This document shows, piece after piece, positions 16,872-23,414 of a DNA stretch of 64,000 bases. Under the pieces are notes generated by a model. It saw only the letters and a list, made by a program, of their open reading frames with translations. It ran no database searches and was not told the DNA's origin. The translations under genes and the position numbers were made by a program. The stretch is from Flavobacteriaceae bacterium D16 (GTDB lineage Bacteria > Bacteroidota > Bacteroidia > Flavobacteriales > Flavobacteriaceae). The DNA is taken from NCBI GenBank assembly GCA_021295155.1, contig JAJTJC010000036.1:310001-374000 (forward strand), written 5' to 3'. Every line of letters begins with the position of its first letter. Position 1 is the first letter of the stretch.

Positions 16872-17312
16872 ATGGCCATTCGCCGATATACCGGGATTTT
16901 AATATTCATACTACTCTTTTCCTGCAGCAATAACGGCAGCAGGAGGAATCCTTATTTGCAAGAGCGGGGATTCCGATTTGAGATCAACCTGAATTTACCT
17001 TTGTACAGCCCTTTGAGCAATCCCGGAAACGCGGTCTACGTCAATAGTGTTAATGCAGGTATTAGAGGAGTCTTTGTCATCAATACTGGTTTTGACTTTA
17101 TGGCCCTGGAAGCCAGCTGCCCTAACCATGTACCCAATAATTGCTCTACCATGGAACTGGATGGGCAAATTGCGAGGTGTTCCTGTGAAGAATTTGAATA
17201 CAGCCTTTTTAACGGTCAGCAATTGAACCGTCCCGATGACGGTGAGCGTTACTACGATATGCTCATTTACAACACCGCCCGCAGTGGTAGTACTATAGTG
17301 ATTTCCAACTGA
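16872..17312 (+). CDS. Rieske-like lipoprotein lacking canonical cluster ligands
   Basis: A 146-residue predicted lipoprotein with lipobox LLFSC (Cys18). The C-terminal part has the layout of a Rieske domain: a first loop ASCPNHVPNNC (Cys83, His86), then a second loop ARCSCEEFEYSLFNGQ (Cys103, Cys105). In a true Rieske protein the loops read CxH and CxxH; here the spacing of the first is changed and the second His is Glu106. A [2Fe-2S] cluster is therefore doubtful. It is convergent with, and abuts, the TonB receptor gene. Confidence 0.65.
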   Translation: MAIRRYTGILIFILLFSCSNNGSRRNPYLQERGFRFEINLNLPLYSPLSNPGNAVYVNSVNAGIRGVFVINTGFDFMALEASCPNHVPNNCSTMELDGQIARCSCEEFEYSLFNGQQLNRPDDGERYYDMLIYNTARSGSTIVISN

Positions 17313-19487
17313 TTAAAAAACTACCGTGGCCCCGAGCAGAAAGTTGATTCCGGCCTGGGGATAGTACCCAGCACCTTCTACAGTGGTTACTGTTCCCGGA
17401 TTGCTAAAATCATCATCAAAGGTGAAAAAGTAACCGTTGGACACGAACTTGGCATCAAAAATATTGTTTAGCAGACCTGACAGTGTAATAGATTTTGCAA
17501 ATCTATTCAGCTTTATCTGGTATTGCACATTAAGATCTGTTTGAGAATAAGCTTCCAGAATACTGCTCTCAGAATCGATATTTCCCATATATTGCTCTCC
17601 TACATACTTGGTCAAAAGTGCTAGTTCCAATTCAGGGGTCGGTGTCCATCCCAGCCGGTTTCCTATAATCACCTCCGGTGAAAAGGCGATATTGGTATTG
17701 CCCAGGTTTTGTAGATTACCGTCTCGTTGGAAAACAAAATCGATATTCTTATTACTACTGAGCGCAATATTTGGCTGCCAGTTAAACTGTTCACCAATAT
17801 TGATATTCGCCTCCAATTCTAATCCTAAACGGTAACTATCTCCAACGTTAGCCCTTAGAGGTGCTCCAACATCGTTTAATTCACCAGTCAGCACTAGTTG
17901 GTCTTTATAACGCATATAATAAACGTTTGCGTTGACCTGGAAATCAGGATTCAGGTACCTCCACCCCAGCTCAAAATCGTTCAGTTTTTCTGGCCTGGGG
18001 CTCCCATTTTCATAATCATTCCGGTTAGGCTCACGCTGGGCCACAGCATAGGAAAAGTAAAAGCTGCTATTCCTGTTTAAGATATAGGTTAGACCTGCCT
18101 TAGGGTTGAAAAAGTTAAAGGTATCGTCCACAATTCCCGTTTCAGCACCATTAGCCTTATACCGTACCGTACGATATTGCATATCCCCGAAAAGTCTCCA
18201 GCGATCATTCAGAGAGTAGTTTGTTTTGGCAAAAATATTGAAGTCGGTTTTCCGGGAGTCATCTTCATAATACCGATCCCGTATAAAACTGTCCGGAGCC
18301 TGGCGTGCCCAAATAACCTCTCCAAAATGGTCTCCCTGATAGTTGTTTAAACCGCCCCCGATCACCAGATCATAAGATTTGGCCCGCTTATTTACAGAAA
18401 ATACAGTCCCATAAAAATCATTATCCAGCCATCTTCTTCTCACCAAATCGGTTGTGGTTATCAGTTCGCCATTAATGTTTACTGGAAGAAAGCCGTAAGT
18501 ATCAAAATCATCATCTTCCCTGAATTGCTCAAAATATCCACGCCCCCTGGTATAGTGAAGGGCAAAGTGGCTACTCCATTCACCATCCCAGTTTTCGTTC
18601 CAATGCAATTGTGCATGATCCTGCTTGTAATTATCTACTTCATTTTCATAGAATCTGGTAGTTCCATTGTCATCGGTGTATATTCCTGCGGGATTAAATG
18701 TACGGTCTGTATCCAGGGTAGCGGCATCAATTCCAAACCAGGACTGATAGGTAATTTCATGTCCTCCGAACAGTACGGCTTTAATCAAGGTGTTTTCATC
18801 CTTAAAAGCCCCTTGCAGAAAATAAGATTCTAATTCGGAAGCGGCCCGGTCTATATAACCATCTGATGTAATTCTGGATAAACGTCCTGAGAGTTCAAAT
18901 TGGTCATTGAGCATCCCGGTGCTGAATTTCATATTATTGCGCAGGGTATTAAAACTACCAAAGGAAGAGGCTATCTGTGCGTAGGCATCCTCAGAAACAG
19001 CATCGGTTAAAATATTGAGACTGGCTCCAAAAGCTCCAGCACCATTGGTAGAAGTCCCTACCCCCCTTTGCAACTGCAAATTCTCCGTCGAAGAACTGAA
19101 GTCAGGTAGATTTACCCAGAAGGTGCCATGAGATTCTGAGTCGTTATACGGGATACCGTTGATGGTCACATTAACACGAGTAGCGTCGCTTCCCCTAACC
19201 CGGATACCTGTATAGCCAATACCTGCACCGGCATCAGAAGTAGTTACCACAGCAGGTAAAAAATTCAATAGTATTGGGATATCCTGACCCAGATTCCGTG
19301 GTGCTATTTCGCTTTTATCCAGATTGGTAAAAGTAAGTGGGATTTCCTTGGTAATCCTAATGGCCGACACCATAACCTCATCGAGTTCAATTTTTCTGGT
19401 GTCCAGAGAATCTTTTTTGGTTTTTTCCTGCGAAAAAGCCACTGAGCAGGTAAAAGCCATTACGATGGCAATCAATAATTTTTTCAT
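17313..19487 (-). CDS. TonB-dependent receptor under TPP riboswitch control; probable thiamine receptor
   Basis: A 724-residue outer-membrane receptor. The start ATG 19487 gives a clean signal peptide (MKKLLIAIVMAFTCSVAFSQ). A TonB box-like segment (ELDEVMVSA) is followed by the plug (about 35-165, with RVRGSDATRVNVTINGIPYND) and a 22-strand-type barrel ending in a terminal aromatic residue (VVF). It lacks the N-terminal CarboxypepD-like domain of the second receptor in this window. A TPP riboswitch sits directly upstream. In Bacteroidota, receptors with this arrangement (called OMR1 in comparative work) are predicted to import thiamine or its precursors. The neighbouring permease, kinase and thiamine-binding-fold protein agree. 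Confidence 0.9.
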   Translation of the reverse strand: MKKLLIAIVMAFTCSVAFSQEKTKKDSLDTRKIELDEVMVSAIRITKEIPLTFTNLDKSEIAPRNLGQDIPILLNFLPAVVTTSDAGAGIGYTGIRVRGSDATRVNVTINGIPYNDSESHGTFWVNLPDFSSSTENLQLQRGVGTSTNGAGAFGASLNILTDAVSEDAYAQIASSFGSFNTLRNNMKFSTGMLNDQFELSGRLSRITSDGYIDRAASELESYFLQGAFKDENTLIKAVLFGGHEITYQSWFGIDAATLDTDRTFNPAGIYTDDNGTTRFYENEVDNYKQDHAQLHWNENWDGEWSSHFALHYTRGRGYFEQFREDDDFDTYGFLPVNINGELITTTDLVRRRWLDNDFYGTVFSVNKRAKSYDLVIGGGLNNYQGDHFGEVIWARQAPDSFIRDRYYEDDSRKTDFNIFAKTNYSLNDRWRLFGDMQYRTVRYKANGAETGIVDDTFNFFNPKAGLTYILNRNSSFYFSYAVAQREPNRNDYENGSPRPEKLNDFELGWRYLNPDFQVNANVYYMRYKDQLVLTGELNDVGAPLRANVGDSYRLGLELEANINIGEQFNWQPNIALSSNKNIDFVFQRDGNLQNLGNTNIAFSPEVIIGNRLGWTPTPELELALLTKYVGEQYMGNIDSESSILEAYSQTDLNVQYQIKLNRFAKSITLSGLLNNIFDAKFVSNGYFFTFDDDFSNPGTVTTVEGAGYYPQAGINFLLGATVVF

Positions 19488-19540
19488 CCGTAAAATTGTT
19501 ACGAATAAAAGGGGCAATTATTCTGGGTTGCTGATTTAAC

Positions 19541-19560
19541 TATTCCGGAGAAACGGAATA
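19541..19560 (-). promoter_or_regulatory. Hairpin between riboswitch and TonB receptor gene
   Basis: A perfect 7-bp inverted repeat, TATTCCG / CGGAATA, with a 6-nt loop lies just after the 3' end of the TPP riboswitch and 54 nt before the start codon. It lacks a T-run, so it is not a standard terminator. It may be part of the riboswitch expression platform. Confidence 0.4.
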
Positions 19561-19568
19561 CATCCAAA

Positions 19569-19684
19569 TGGTGCTTGCACCTCCCTTCCCGGCATTACCC
19601 GGGCAGGTTCATTGGGTATAATCTCAGCCCTGATCAATACTCTAGTCCAAGTAAACAGACTCTATTACTAATCAAAGCACCCCT
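19569..19684 (-). promoter_or_regulatory. TPP (THI-element) riboswitch
   Basis: On the minus strand the aptamer shows the invariant blocks in order: the 5' P1 arm GGGGTGC (19683-19677), CTGAGA (19627-19622), ATACCC, TGAACCTG (about 19611-19604), then GGGTAATGCC (ending 19591), the AGGGA block and the 3' P1 arm GCACC (19574-19570). A long variable arm of roughly 45 nt precedes CTGAGA. It senses thiamine pyrophosphate and should repress the TonB receptor when the cofactor is plentiful. The remaining parts of the 302-bp gap (19488-19568 and 19685-19789) show no gene. Confidence 0.95.
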
Positions 19685-19789
19685 TTTGAGATGGTGTAAA
19701 GGTACAACAGTACCCTCTTTCCCAAAAAGAATGCGATGGAATTTTACATCGATACACTTATAAAAGGAAGGCAAAAGGGTGTTTGCAGC

Positions 19790-21337
19790 TTATTTAGACC
19801 TACCTTGATGGGCAGGTTTCAACAAATCGTTGACTGTTTTTACCGGATTGAATGTGAGCTGTGGCACTTCTACAAATATCGTATTCCAATAGGCCATGGC
19901 TCCGTTCCAAAGCCCTGGTAATTCCAATGCTTTCAATGGTTTACCATCCTTTGTTTTATGTGAAATAAATCCCTGATCACTATCCACAAAATTAAGGAGG
20001 TTATACTTTTCGCCGCGATGATTCCTTATCCCGCATACCAGATCTACCGGGTTAAAATGGGTGGCATCATTGAAGATACTTTTTTGTGTATCGTCTCCGA
20101 GGTTGGCCTGAGCAGATTCTACTATTTGTAGCGAAACATGATTTCGTGGATCTCTAACCCAGTAAGGGCCTCCTCCAGGTTCACCTTCATTTCGCACCAT
20201 TCCACATACCCGTATAGGCCGATTAATCTTATCTTTTAAAATATCCAGCTGTTCTGCCAGGCTAAAGCTGGAATAATTTTCAGAGAATCGAACGTTCAGT
20301 TCCCCGATCAGGAATTCCTTAATTTCTGCAAGTTGCTCTCCGGTTATTCCGGAATCTTCCAGTATAGCTGCATATCGAAAAGCCCTTTCCTGAATACTTA
20401 GTAATACCCCTGCAAGAAGTTTTTTGCTTGCTCCGGATTGTTTTGCAATTTCCGGTACAGCTACATTGTCTATGTTTTTAATAAATATAAGATCTGCCTC
20501 TTGCTCATTGAGGTTTTCGATAAGTGCTCCATGTCCGCCAGGCCGGAACAACAGACTACCGTCTGCCTGTCGGAAAAGCTGATTTTCAGGAGTTACCGCA
20601 ATAGTGTCTGTAGATGGTTTTTGAAAGGAGTAATCTACAGTAAATCGAGTTCCGGTTTTCTTTTCAACCCGCTTCTGAATCGCTGCATAGGTTTCTTTAA
20701 ATAAGGTTTCGTGCTGCGGTGAAATAGTGAAATGGAGCTGGGCCTTACCTCCTGTGGAAGCGTAATCTGAAGCTTCCATCAAGTGCTCCTCGAAAGCCGT
20801 GGCCACGTGTGAATCATAATGGTGAAAAGGCAAAATCCCCTTTGGGTAAAAATCATAATTGAGCCCCGAAGGATCGAGCATCTTATGGATAAAGTGCGCC
20901 ATAGCCCTTCCAGAGTCTGAAAATTTCTCCTCAACGATACTCAGAACATTTTGATAAAATGGAAAGCGTTCCAAATTTTCAGCAAACATCCTTATATCCT
21001 TGTCGCCAGTTCTTTCCAAATATTCTTCCAGTGTTTCCTTTCCCGGGTTAAAGGCTTCCAAAAAGTTAAAAAGAGCCTTGAACATTCGGGAAGCAGCGCC
21101 TGAAGCAGGAACAAACTTGAGAAGTACCAGGGAAGCAGTAGACTTTTCGAATGCCTTGACGATATTCTGGGATTCTTCTTCCGTATATCTAAGTATGCCA
21201 TCACCTACAACAGCCGCTCGCTCCAGCCGGGTAAATGGAATTCCATCAATAAAGGTCTCTATCTGCTTCAGAACCTTCTTCTGGGTAATTCCCATTTTCT
21301 CCAGCTGTTTCAAGTCGTTTTCTAGAAAATCAATCAT
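19790..21337 (-). CDS. DUF4301 family protein in thiamine uptake cluster
   Basis: A 515-residue cytoplasmic protein of DUF4301, known mainly from Bacteroidota. Recognisable blocks include LLKFVPASGAASRMFKALF, which resembles the glycine/Ser-Arg nucleotide-binding loop of sugar-nucleotidyltransferase-like folds, then PKGILPFHHY and LLFRPGGHGALIENLN. A nucleotidyltransferase-like activity is therefore plausible, but the reaction is unknown. Its start overlaps the stop of the NadR-like kinase gene by 4 bp (ATGA). The TPP riboswitch and receptor gene follow it, so a link to thiamine metabolism is inferred from context. Confidence 0.85.
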   Translation of the reverse strand: MIDFLENDLKQLEKMGITQKKVLKQIETFIDGIPFTRLERAAVVGDGILRYTEEESQNIVKAFEKSTASLVLLKFVPASGAASRMFKALFNFLEAFNPGKETLEEYLERTGDKDIRMFAENLERFPFYQNVLSIVEEKFSDSGRAMAHFIHKMLDPSGLNYDFYPKGILPFHHYDSHVATAFEEHLMEASDYASTGGKAQLHFTISPQHETLFKETYAAIQKRVEKKTGTRFTVDYSFQKPSTDTIAVTPENQLFRQADGSLLFRPGGHGALIENLNEQEADLIFIKNIDNVAVPEIAKQSGASKKLLAGVLLSIQERAFRYAAILEDSGITGEQLAEIKEFLIGELNVRFSENYSSFSLAEQLDILKDKINRPIRVCGMVRNEGEPGGGPYWVRDPRNHVSLQIVESAQANLGDDTQKSIFNDATHFNPVDLVCGIRNHRGEKYNLLNFVDSDQGFISHKTKDGKPLKALELPGLWNGAMAYWNTIFVEVPQLTFNPVKTVNDLLKPAHQGRSK

Positions 21338-21897
21338 CTTTCAAGGAGTTGGTCTATAGATTTTATTGCTTCGCGAAAGCGTGCTTCTTCCGTTCCCTTT
21401 AAGGTAATAAAATTGCGATTATATTTTATCAATGTGTTTTTAAAATAAGCAAACATTTGTTCCCTTTCATTGGGTTTATCTCTCAGGTCGTCCTTTTCCC
21501 AGGGGATGTCGATACTGGTCAACAAATACAAATCATAACGGTTAAGCAATGCGTATTTTTCCAAAACGGGATCACAGAATCCTAAATAATATGCCTCTGA
21601 GTAGACCTTGGTTTCTAAGAGATCTGTATCGCAGATTAGCAGTCTATCTGCATTTTTAGACAGGCTATTTTCAAGGTCCATCTGCCCTAGTGCAATAGGT
21701 AACAGGTCTACCGGCTCACAGGTTCGCTGTTCCCTGTTCCACTTTTCCTGAAGGTACTCGCGTGCATACTCAGGCACCCACAGTGTATTGTAGTGTTCCG
21801 CCAATTGTTCGGCAAGTGTAGTCTTCCCGGTAGATTCCGGGCCAAATAGCACTACCTTAACAAGGTCTGAGGGCTCTTGTTTAAGTTTCTCTTCCAT
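21334..21897 (-). CDS. NadR-like P-loop kinase, possibly acting on thiamine
   Basis: A 187-residue AAA_28/NadR-type kinase. It has Walker A GPESTGKTT at residues 19-27, the family-typical VPEYAREYLQEKW, a LLICDTDLLETKVY acid block and a DIPWEKDDLRD substrate region. In NadR this domain phosphorylates nicotinamide riboside. Here no NMN adenylyltransferase domain is fused. The gene overlaps a PnuC-family permease gene by 46 bp within a cluster of thiamine signs, so phosphorylation of imported thiamine is an attractive alternative. Nicotinamide riboside remains possible. Confidence 0.8.
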   Translation of the reverse strand: MEEKLKQEPSDLVKVVLFGPESTGKTTLAEQLAEHYNTLWVPEYAREYLQEKWNREQRTCEPVDLLPIALGQMDLENSLSKNADRLLICDTDLLETKVYSEAYYLGFCDPVLEKYALLNRYDLYLLTSIDIPWEKDDLRDKPNEREQMFAYFKNTLIKYNRNFITLKGTEEARFREAIKSIDQLLER

Positions 21898-22490
21898 GCC
21901 AGATAACCAAAAATGGCGATAAGGGTAAATAGGAAATACTGAAAGGAAGTAAAGATAAGCCCTTTATACAAATATAAGGGTACAGAGATTACATCCCCCA
22001 GGATCCAAAATATCCAATTCTCTATTTTTTTACGGGCCATTAACCACATCCCGACAAAGAAAATAGCCGTAGTGACTGTATCTACGTAAGCAGTCCAGGT
22101 ATTGAACTTATTAAAAAACAGATAGATAATCACCACAAATACCAAAGTTCCGGCAAATAGAAACAGGGACCAGCGCCTTTCCTTGCTGTTAGTTCGGGTT
22201 ATCGGTATAAAATGGGTCGCATCTACTTTACGGGTCCAGACATACCAACCGTAAACACTCATTGCAAAATAGTAGGCATTGATCAGCATATCGCCCAACA
22301 AGCCGAAAATCAATAAAATGTATACAAAGATTCCTGTGCTAATTATCCCTGTTGGAAAGACCAGTATATTTTCGCGCTTGGCATACCACACACTTAAAAA
22401 CCCAAATACCACACCAATAATTTCGAGAGTAATCAGGTAGGCAGGAGTATGGTCATATTGGGCAAATATCCAATCAAAAATGTGGCTCAT
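21852..22490 (-). CDS. PnuC-family vitamin permease (PnuT or PnuC)
   Basis: A 212-residue inner-membrane protein with about seven helices and the PnuC signature segments (LEIIGVVFGFLSVWYAKREN, YYFAMSVYGWYVW, FFVGMWLMARKKIENWIFWI). ATG 22490 is preferred to an upstream TTG. PnuC proteins facilitate diffusion of nicotinamide riboside, riboflavin (PnuX) or thiamine (PnuT), with trapping by a kinase. Its neighbours here are a thiamine-binding-fold protein (17-bp overlap upstream), a P-loop kinase (46-bp overlap downstream) and a TPP-regulated receptor, so thiamine (PnuT) is the better guess. Confidence 0.85.
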   Translation of the reverse strand: MSHIFDWIFAQYDHTPAYLITLEIIGVVFGFLSVWYAKRENILVFPTGIISTGIFVYILLIFGLLGDMLINAYYFAMSVYGWYVWTRKVDATHFIPITRTNSKERRWSLFLFAGTLVFVVIIYLFFNKFNTWTAYVDTVTTAIFFVGMWLMARKKIENWIFWILGDVISVPLYLYKGLIFTSFQYFLFTLIAIFGYLAWKRNLNKSPQTLLR

Positions 22491-22734
22491 ACTGGCTTCG
22501 GTCAGATTTAACAATCTTTAAAAAAAACAAACCGCGATCGGCATCCATGAGCGCTTCCTTCATCGCCTCCTGCAAAAATGGCATCAGCTGGTCATAATCC
22601 CCATAAATCTGCGTGCTCAATGGATTCTCCATCACTTTGAACCCTGAAGCTCGGAGGTTTTTGATAAAGGCAATGATCGGGGGTTCAAATTCGTCCTGGA
22701 GCGGACTAAGGGTAAGTTCTACGGATACCTGCAT
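22474..22734 (-). CDS. Thiamine-binding fold protein, MTH1187/YqgV family
   Basis: An 86-residue ferredoxin-like-fold protein. The pattern VELTLSPL..EFEPPIIAFIKNLRASG..V..NPLSTQIYGDYD matches the MTH1187/YqgV family, of which the related YkoF binds thiamine. It is the first gene of the permease-kinase-DUF4301 string and overlaps the permease gene by 17 bp. It may bind imported thiamine in the cytoplasm. The only gap upstream is 50 bp to the phosphopantetheinyl transferase gene. Confidence 0.82.
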   Translation of the reverse strand: MQVSVELTLSPLQDEFEPPIIAFIKNLRASGFKVMENPLSTQIYGDYDQLMPFLQEAMKEALMDADRGLFFLKIVKSDRSQYEPHF

Positions 22735-22784: not shown

Positions 22785-23414
22785 TCAGATACGCAAGGCA
22801 TATACGCAGGTAAAACCCTCAAATTCCAGAAAGAAAATGTTGTAATTAGACTGCTCTCCCTGAAATTCAGCCTTTCCTGACGTGTTCCCTGTAGTCAGGT
22901 CAAATTCCTTGATATCGATATGTTGATAAAAACTGATACCCGGGATAGACAGAATTTTATAGACTGATTCCTTGGCGCCCCAAAGCACTGTAAGCTTACG
23001 GACCAAATCGAGTTCCTGGCTGCTGCTATCATACTCCAAATCAGTAAATTTATGAGCAATTCGTGCAATCTTATCTCTTTGTTTCTCAATATCAATCCCC
23101 ACTTTTATGTGTTTACTGACAATTATCCCGGTAAAATTGTGTGAGTGGGTAATAGAGATGTAATTCCCGTCTTGTAGATGAGGTTTCCCAAGAGCATCAT
23201 AATACAAATCATGGTCCTTGTATCCAGCCTCAGCGAGCAAGTGCCGGATGCTGAGAAAACCCCTCCGATGTAGTTCAGATTTCATCCCCTCCAAACGCGT
23301 CCGGCTATTTTCTGTTAATACAATGGGAGACTGGAGCGTAGACTCCTGTTCTTCAACCTTCCAGAGGTATATGCTAATGTCTGGCGTTACTGCTAATGTT
23401 TTGTAAAGAGGCAT
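22785..23414 (-). CDS. 4'-phosphopantetheinyl transferase, Sfp-type
   Basis: A 209-residue enzyme that transfers phosphopantetheine from CoA to a carrier-protein Ser. The magnesium-binding GIDIE is at residues 106-110 and WGAKESVYK at 145-153; the ITHSHNFTG block (88-96) also fits. The length is typical of compact Sfp-like enzymes. It may serve the fatty acid carrier or a secondary pathway. It lies upstream of the thiamine cluster on the same strand and is divergent from ahcY. Confidence 0.92.

Follow-up and report, generated by a model that had tools for sequence, protein, structure and literature searches.

The locus described here lies in a 64,000-nucleotide stretch of the genome of Flavobacteriaceae bacterium D16 (contig JAJTJC010000036.1, positions 310,001 to 374,000 of the forward strand), referred to as the window, within which all positions are counted. 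On its minus strand the window holds a TonB-dependent receptor gene preceded by a thiamine pyrophosphate (TPP) riboswitch aptamer, and a row of genes for a small thiamine-binding-fold protein (TBP), a PnuC-superfamily permease, a stand-alone NadR-type kinase and a DUF4301 protein (Table 1). The locus was analyzed as a probable salvage cluster for thiamine (vitamin B1).

In the direction of transcription the order is 4'-phosphopantetheinyl transferase (PPTase), TBP, PnuC, kinase, DUF4301, TPP aptamer and TonB receptor. Overlapping genes run from TBP to DUF4301, with 17 nt shared by TBP and PnuC if the permease starts, as it probably does, at the ATG at 22490, 46 nt by PnuC and the kinase and 4 nt by the kinase and DUF4301. 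The receptor was read from the ATG at 19487; a longer open reading frame is possible from a TTG at 19517. Every gene named in an earlier note on this DNA was recovered with Pfam profiles at its place on the minus strand, and the next gene in line, the PPTase, was missing from that list. The switch lies 5' of the receptor gene, as had been noted; relative to the permease and kinase genes the aptamer is downstream and not in front.

Table 1. Positions of the genes and elements of the locus in the window.
Feature	Position	Strand	Match
TonB-dependent outer-membrane receptor (OMR1/OMthi-like), 724 residues from ATG	17313..19487	-	PF00593 + PF07715
TPP riboswitch aptamer, long P3 arm	19565..19694	-	RF00059, 40.7 bits
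Promoter -7-like box TACCTTTA, directly 5' of the aptamer	19697..19704	-	position match in relatives
DUF4301 protein, predicted UDPGP-type nucleotidyltransferase fold	19790..21337	-	PF14134, E 2.1e-209
Stand-alone NadR-type (RNK) kinase, 187 residues, proposed thiamine kinase	21334..21897	-	AAA_28, E 4.5e-43
PnuC-superfamily permease	21852..22514	-	PF04973, E 4.2e-53
Thiamine-binding-fold protein (TBP), 86 residues	22474..22734	-	PF01910, 29.7 bits (cut-off 24.9)
4'-phosphopantetheinyl transferase (PPTase, ACPS), upstream neighbor	22785..23414	-	PF01648

TPP aptamer and promoter-like box

The aptamer (19694-19565) was matched to RF00059 with an E-value of 1.2e-6 in the local search and 1.9e-6 genome-wide, and no other TPP-riboswitch match was obtained from the genome (3.2 Mb, with a completeness rating of 99.99%). 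Its 40.7 bits lie below the Rfam gathering score of 54.3, and the loci of six relatives likewise gave nothing above that score; the kinase-adjacent TPP switch of genome G015 exceeds it with 58.9 bits. Receptor-linked TPP aptamers of the group often fall short of the gathering cut-off (the window, L062, L065, L074, L096, L097 and L098), so that standard annotation would overlook them.

Covariation in relatives supports the TPP aptamer. It was measured in 36 sequences, namely that of the window together with 35 drawn from the 69 relatives used in the promoter-box comparison. The core columns CTGAGA, ACCC, GAACCT and TAAT were invariant in this set, the 35 relatives having been pre-selected by the pattern of this core. 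Across P2, P4 and P5, 11 pairs were chosen, and 99.7% of their 396 cells held standard pairs. Both sides had changed in four pairs, all of P5; cells of this kind numbered 39, against 11.2 in shuffles. The covariation score was 0.282 against 0.130 in shuffles and fell to 0.132 or below when the partner was slid by 1-3 columns. Two of the five covariation measures were unremarkable: the number of pairs with both sides changed (4 against 2.7 in shuffles, 31/500) and the number of further pair types (8 against 7.2 in shuffles, 113/500). The native aptamer was not reproduced by single-strand fold prediction.

The motif TAnnTTTG, which we take to be the Bacteroidota -7 box consensus, was present 20-25 nt before GGGGTG in 68 of the 69 relatives, against 1.3 expected from control stretches. 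The box of the window, TACCTTTA, has A instead of the last G. Because this box stands directly 5' of the aptamer, the receptor is most likely transcribed from a promoter of its own, probably as a unit separate from the permease operon. Only the receptor gene lies directly behind the switch, which probably governs the receptor directly and not the permease or the kinase. In locus L062 the receptor and the permease operon are separated by a reading frame of 842 residues on the opposite strand. An rRNA operon was considered as the content of the 5-6 kb separating DUF4301 from the switch and was rejected, as no rRNA motif was present in seven loci.

At the 3' end of the aptamer, GGTGCAAGCACC (19570-19581) could either fold into a small hairpin or base-pair with the CACC that precedes the aptamer. 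These alternative pairings resemble a two-state switch; the CACC pairing of the 5' arm of the hairpin was read by eye. A strong small hairpin follows the aptamer core directly in 28 of 70 loci, with 4.0 expected from shuffles, and that of the window itself scores 7, under the mark of 8.

Proteins of the locus

The kinase carries the P-loop GPESTGKT, and AAA_28 was the only family above cut-off in its 187 residues. Its structure model (pLDDT 92.6) gave NadR chains as the best Foldseek matches (E 8.5e-12), with a TM-score of 0.85 by query against 8x7f_A. The permease is named a nicotinamide riboside (NR) transporter by NCBIfam (108.9 bits, cut-off 42.45). Two genomes with a thiamine-type locus carry a separate PnuC-NadR pair (L091, L093). 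Both of these NadR paralogues consist of CTP_transf_like, the NMNAT domain, and AAA_28; the window kinase is without the NMNAT domain.

Trees were built from 37 kinases and 41 PnuC rows, picked by hand. The PnuC tree was divided into two clades with support of 99/94. One contains the PnuC linked to thiamine pyrophosphokinase (TPK) in G164, two that are linked to NadR, those of families f4, f6, f11 and f15 and two of f7; the permease of the window belongs to the other. Two PnuC lineages thus serve one kind of locus. In the kinase tree the group was separate from NadR, with support of only 84/87 and long branches.

The receptor is 40% identical (286/711 columns) to that of the G164 locus. No signal peptide was seen in TBP on inspection by eye, and the protein is probably cytosolic. 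In L288 the TBP has a match to Pfam Ykof as well.

For DUF4301, a Pfam family with no assigned function and named in one paper among the matches listed, a UDP-sugar-pyrophosphorylase fold is predicted. The AlphaFold model (pLDDT 91.5) was matched by Foldseek to UDP-GlcNAc pyrophosphorylase (E 1.2e-9) and to UDP-sugar pyrophosphorylases, and structure alignment gave Z 21.6 and a root-mean-square deviation of 3.4 over 334/515 residues. SGAA-RM, GHGAL and N-DN show little or no variation in the family and resemble motifs of UGP and UAP. Of 148 genomes of the phylum, 26 have DUF4301. Fusion of the protein with the kinase was seen in 3 of 80 loci of close relatives and in 9 of the 46 kinase loci of a second set (both sets are described below). 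In 13 of 13 DUF4301 loci outside the order (L262-L274), phmmer at E 1e-5 found no match to the kinase, PnuC or TBP of the window; in one of them, L268, the TPP motif was matched at a distance of about 7.4 kb. DUF4301 is retained where the kinase is gone in G064 (L072) and G119 (L290). DUF4301 was therefore rejected as a thiamine gene, being apart from the cluster outside the order and persisting without the kinase in two genomes, and thiamine does not account for its presence in the locus. Fusion was likewise rejected as proof of joint chemistry: the kinase is fused to DUF4301 but also to the PPTase, so that fusion alone is weak evidence. PPTase-kinase fusions were found in 3 of the 46 kinase loci, two of the three being confirmed with Pfam. 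In these loci of family f7 (L280, L281 and L282), PPTase and NadR-type kinase form a single frame before a receptor, with a TPP-motif match in two of the three.

Downstream of the receptor gene and convergent with it, the plus strand (16872-17312) encodes a small putative lipoprotein. Its Cys/His spacing is reminiscent of a degenerate Rieske motif, and it has no Pfam match.

Neighborhoods and thiamine genes in relatives

The first set of 80 loci was formed from the best 80 of 572 confirmed PnuC relatives and holds the nearest ones; their titles name Flavobacteriaceae or Flavobacteriales, and their placement in genera is in part presumed. Genes were counted up to 3 kb from the kinase, and TPP switch and receptor up to 10.5 kb downstream, with some loci truncated by contig ends. 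PnuC and the kinase were present in all 80, PPTase in 73, a TPP-motif match in 71, the receptor in 70, and TBP and DUF4301 in 69 each. The second set comprised 60 loci, 41 of them centered on PnuC and 19 on the kinase. Its 46 kinase loci, which include the two true NadR loci L091 and L093, held PnuC in 37, PPTase in 33, the receptor in 32, a TPP match in 27, TBP in 23 and DUF4301 in 20. TPP switches in these fetched loci were scored by motif pattern and not with Infernal; the pattern gave false hits (inside a gene, L070) and missed some switches seen by Infernal (L095, L255).

The composition of the locus varied between families. TBP, PnuC, kinase, TPP switch and receptor occur together without DUF4301 in L096, L097 and L098, from other families. 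TBP, kinase, TPP switch and receptor occur with PnuC elsewhere in L283, L284 and L285 (two f8 genomes and one f14 genome), and TBP and kinase alone in L288. The TBP matches of L283, L285 and L288 are weak, at 21.6-23.5 bits against the Pfam cut-off of 24.9. In family f7 the kinase matches were weaker and some lie away from a switch (L288, L289). In a sample of 60 genomes, of which 48 had the kinase, a same-strand TPP switch lay downstream of the kinase in 35/48, at distances of 21 nt to 9.1 kb (45 nt or less in six), and in 0/48 was the nearest switch close upstream of it.

NAD genes beside the permease and kinase in relatives had been named in the earlier note as a finding that would speak against thiamine. 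No homologue of NadA or NMNAT was found within up to 10 kb in any of the 80 loci, other NAD genes not being searched, an outcome that favors thiamine. In the second set NadA was present in one locus (L082) and NMNAT in two (L091, L093). In L082 (9783-12097; G003, a genome with TPK and without the kinase) nadA is encoded on the other strand, two genes away from a PnuC of the window clade.

In the genome of the window ThiL was present (319 bits). The search for ThiC, TPK (PF04263) and ThiK gave no match, and that for ThiE merely a 21-bit partial match below cut-off. In the 60-genome sample the kinase was counted at E <1e-40 and ThiE above 100 bits. The kinase was present in 48 genomes, TPK in 6, ThiE in 19 and ThiC in 15, and ThiK exceeded its cut-off in 0/60, with five weak matches. 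In 39 genomes ThiL was present and ThiE and TPK were both missing; such genomes are on paper unable to convert imported thiamine to TPP. The kinase was found in 37 of these 39, the two exceptions being 87% and 83% complete, and in 11 of 20 genomes with ThiE or TPK (Fisher p 5e-4). Kinase and TPK occurred together in one genome of the 60 (p 8e-4). G173 was scored as lacking ThiE (33.2 bits, the cut-off being reached only with neighboring pieces) and G017 as having ThiL, its match of 78.6 bits being under the cut-off; both carry the kinase, so omitting both gives 35/37.

Across the order, 148 genomes were scanned with a kinase cut of E <1e-20, only 23 candidates being scored for some of them. 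The kinase alone was found in 85, TPK alone in 41, both in 8 and neither in 14. PnuC was present in 131/134 genomes with the kinase or TPK against 1/14 with neither, and among genomes at least 90% complete in 106/109 against 1/4. It was retained in 40/41 genomes with TPK only, including 18/19 TPK-bearing 0.6-Mb genomes of f16.

Proposed pathway, alternatives and known systems

The locus is probably a thiamine salvage cluster of a probable B1 auxotroph, in which the NadR-type kinase would make thiamine monophosphate (TMP) and ThiL would convert it to TPP. The substrates assigned below to the four proteins (receptor, permease, TBP and kinase) are inferred, as is the regulation. The TonB receptor would carry thiamine across the outer membrane, and abundant TPP would, by analogy with the known riboswitch class, lower receptor synthesis through the switch. 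The PnuC-type permease may pass thiamine over the inner membrane, probably by facilitated diffusion, the mode in which PnuT reportedly acts. The small, probably cytosolic TBP may bind thiamine or hand it on. The kinase, judged by its co-occurrence with other thiamine genes, would phosphorylate thiamine to TMP and so trap it. ThiL is encoded elsewhere in the genome, and its predicted activity would yield TPP.

The proposal in the earlier note that receptor, permease, TBP and kinase work together on thiamine most likely holds, given the TPP match in 71/80 loci, the lack of NadA and NMNAT homologues in all 80 and a kinase that tracks the absence of ThiE and TPK. The cluster can be called complete, as it tentatively was there, only if ThiL is counted.

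Several results weigh against this assignment. The chief of them, directed at a simple one-for-one swap of kinase and TPK, is genus g2, in which 8 of 10 genomes hold both and two have no kinase match. All eight dual genomes of the order-wide scan belong to g2, and where the locus was read, kinase and DUF4301 share a single long frame. Restricted to family f1 in the sample of 60 genomes, the test of kinase against TPK reached only p 0.026. The counts follow clades, the 41 genomes with TPK only being 19 of f5, 19 of f16 and 3 others, so that independent events are few and the p-values overstate independence. The 80 loci are by selection those of the nearest PnuC relatives and have much of their synteny in common, the PPTase included. 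In 12 of the 48 kinase genomes the kinase contig has no TPP match, although one of these, G177, does show a motif match in place (L291), and in one relative the switch is 235 kb distant. The TBPs of PnuC-less loci are weak, with 22.5 and 23.5 bits in the two that were checked (cut-off 24.9). The kinase has the fold of a nicotinamide riboside kinase, and TMP might instead be taken up from outside or supplied by YjbQ.

With that fold, the permease and kinase could be an NR salvage pair that merely adjoins a thiamine receptor. The NCBIfam label, the NadR chains as closest solved relatives of the kinase and the PnuC near nadA in the kinase-less G003 agree with this. It is nevertheless unlikely, because NadA and NMNAT homologues are absent from all 80 loci and the NMNAT domain of both NR-type paralogues is missing from the window kinase. 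NR salvage also fails to predict the tie of the kinase to absent ThiE and TPK, the tie to TBP, or the loci in which kinase, TPP switch and receptor stand without PnuC. TPP switches and YkoF-like proteins also serve thiamine precursors, and the cluster could salvage a precursor or breakdown product of thiamine, hydroxymethylpyrimidine (HMP) or the thiazole alcohol, as substrate of the kinase, the halves then being joined by YjbQ or some other enzyme. The Ykof match of the L288 TBP and the naming of YjbQ as an alternative to ThiE, in an excerpt of PMC5613172, would suit such a route. We rate it as quite improbable, since ThiC is without a match and ThiE under its cut-off in the window genome while ThiL is retained, and since the kinase alternates with TPK, which acts on thiamine itself, so that whole thiamine fits better.

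The gene order might also be inherited synteny without joint function, thiamine concerning only the receptor. The PPTase, with no known thiamine role, keeps its place in 73/80 loci and can be fused to the kinase, as such an account would allow. Against it, the set is reshuffled across families with PnuC drawn from two clades, some loci keep kinase, switch and receptor side by side without PnuC, and the presence of the kinase follows thiamine genes located elsewhere in the genome. We regard this account as very unlikely. An extension of the thiamine assignment, drawn from the predicted DUF4301 fold and from analogy, would make the kinase a new thiamine kinase family across Flavobacteriales whose product is nucleotidylated by DUF4301 to an undescribed nucleotidylated thiamine, as a storage or signal form. 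Kinase and adenylyltransferase are joined in NadR, as kinase and DUF4301 are in the fusions. This extension is doubtful, and we would put little weight on it.

Flavobacteriales have been described as potentially B1-auxotrophic, with high expression of B1 uptake genes at sea (excerpt of PMC8552899). A NadR-type thiamine kinase, if confirmed, would fill a missing step of B1 salvage in many related bacteria. It would also correct 'NR transporter' and 'NadR-like kinase' annotations across the order and could serve as a marker of B1 salvage, and the vitamin specificity of Pnu permease-kinase pairs would then not have to follow the family name. No such kinase was found in the open-licence literature among the matches listed, which is not proof of absence.

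The cluster resembles PnuC-NadR systems of NR salvage in having a PnuC-superfamily permease and an RNK-fold kinase as neighbors. It differs from them in the missing NMNAT domain, in having a TPP switch and TBP instead, and in the absence of NadA and NMNAT nearby in the 80 loci. The proposed reaction, thiamine to TMP followed by ThiL, is that of Escherichia coli ThiK (YcfN), which belongs to another protein family than the NadR-type kinase. DUF4301 would share the predicted fold of the UDP-sugar pyrophosphorylases UGP and UAP at about 9-20% identity in structure alignments.

The nearest known system is the OMR1/OMthi-PnuT-Tnr3/TPK thiamine operon of Bacteroides, arranged TPP-TonB-PnuC-TPK (Costliow and Degnan, 2017; excerpt of PMC5613172), an arrangement also seen in G164. 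Common to both are a TPP switch before a TonB receptor, a PnuC-superfamily permease and an adjoining phosphorylating enzyme. Unlike that operon, the window has a NadR-type kinase in the place of TPK, with TBP and DUF4301 in addition; its permease and kinase genes lie upstream of the switch with a promoter-like box between, and its permease and the TPK-linked PnuC of G164 belong to different clades. By its gene content the cluster may be described as a variant of the OMR-PnuT-TPK system with a NadR-type kinase replacing TPK, and a kinase family so far known for vitamin B3 appears here to trap vitamin B1.

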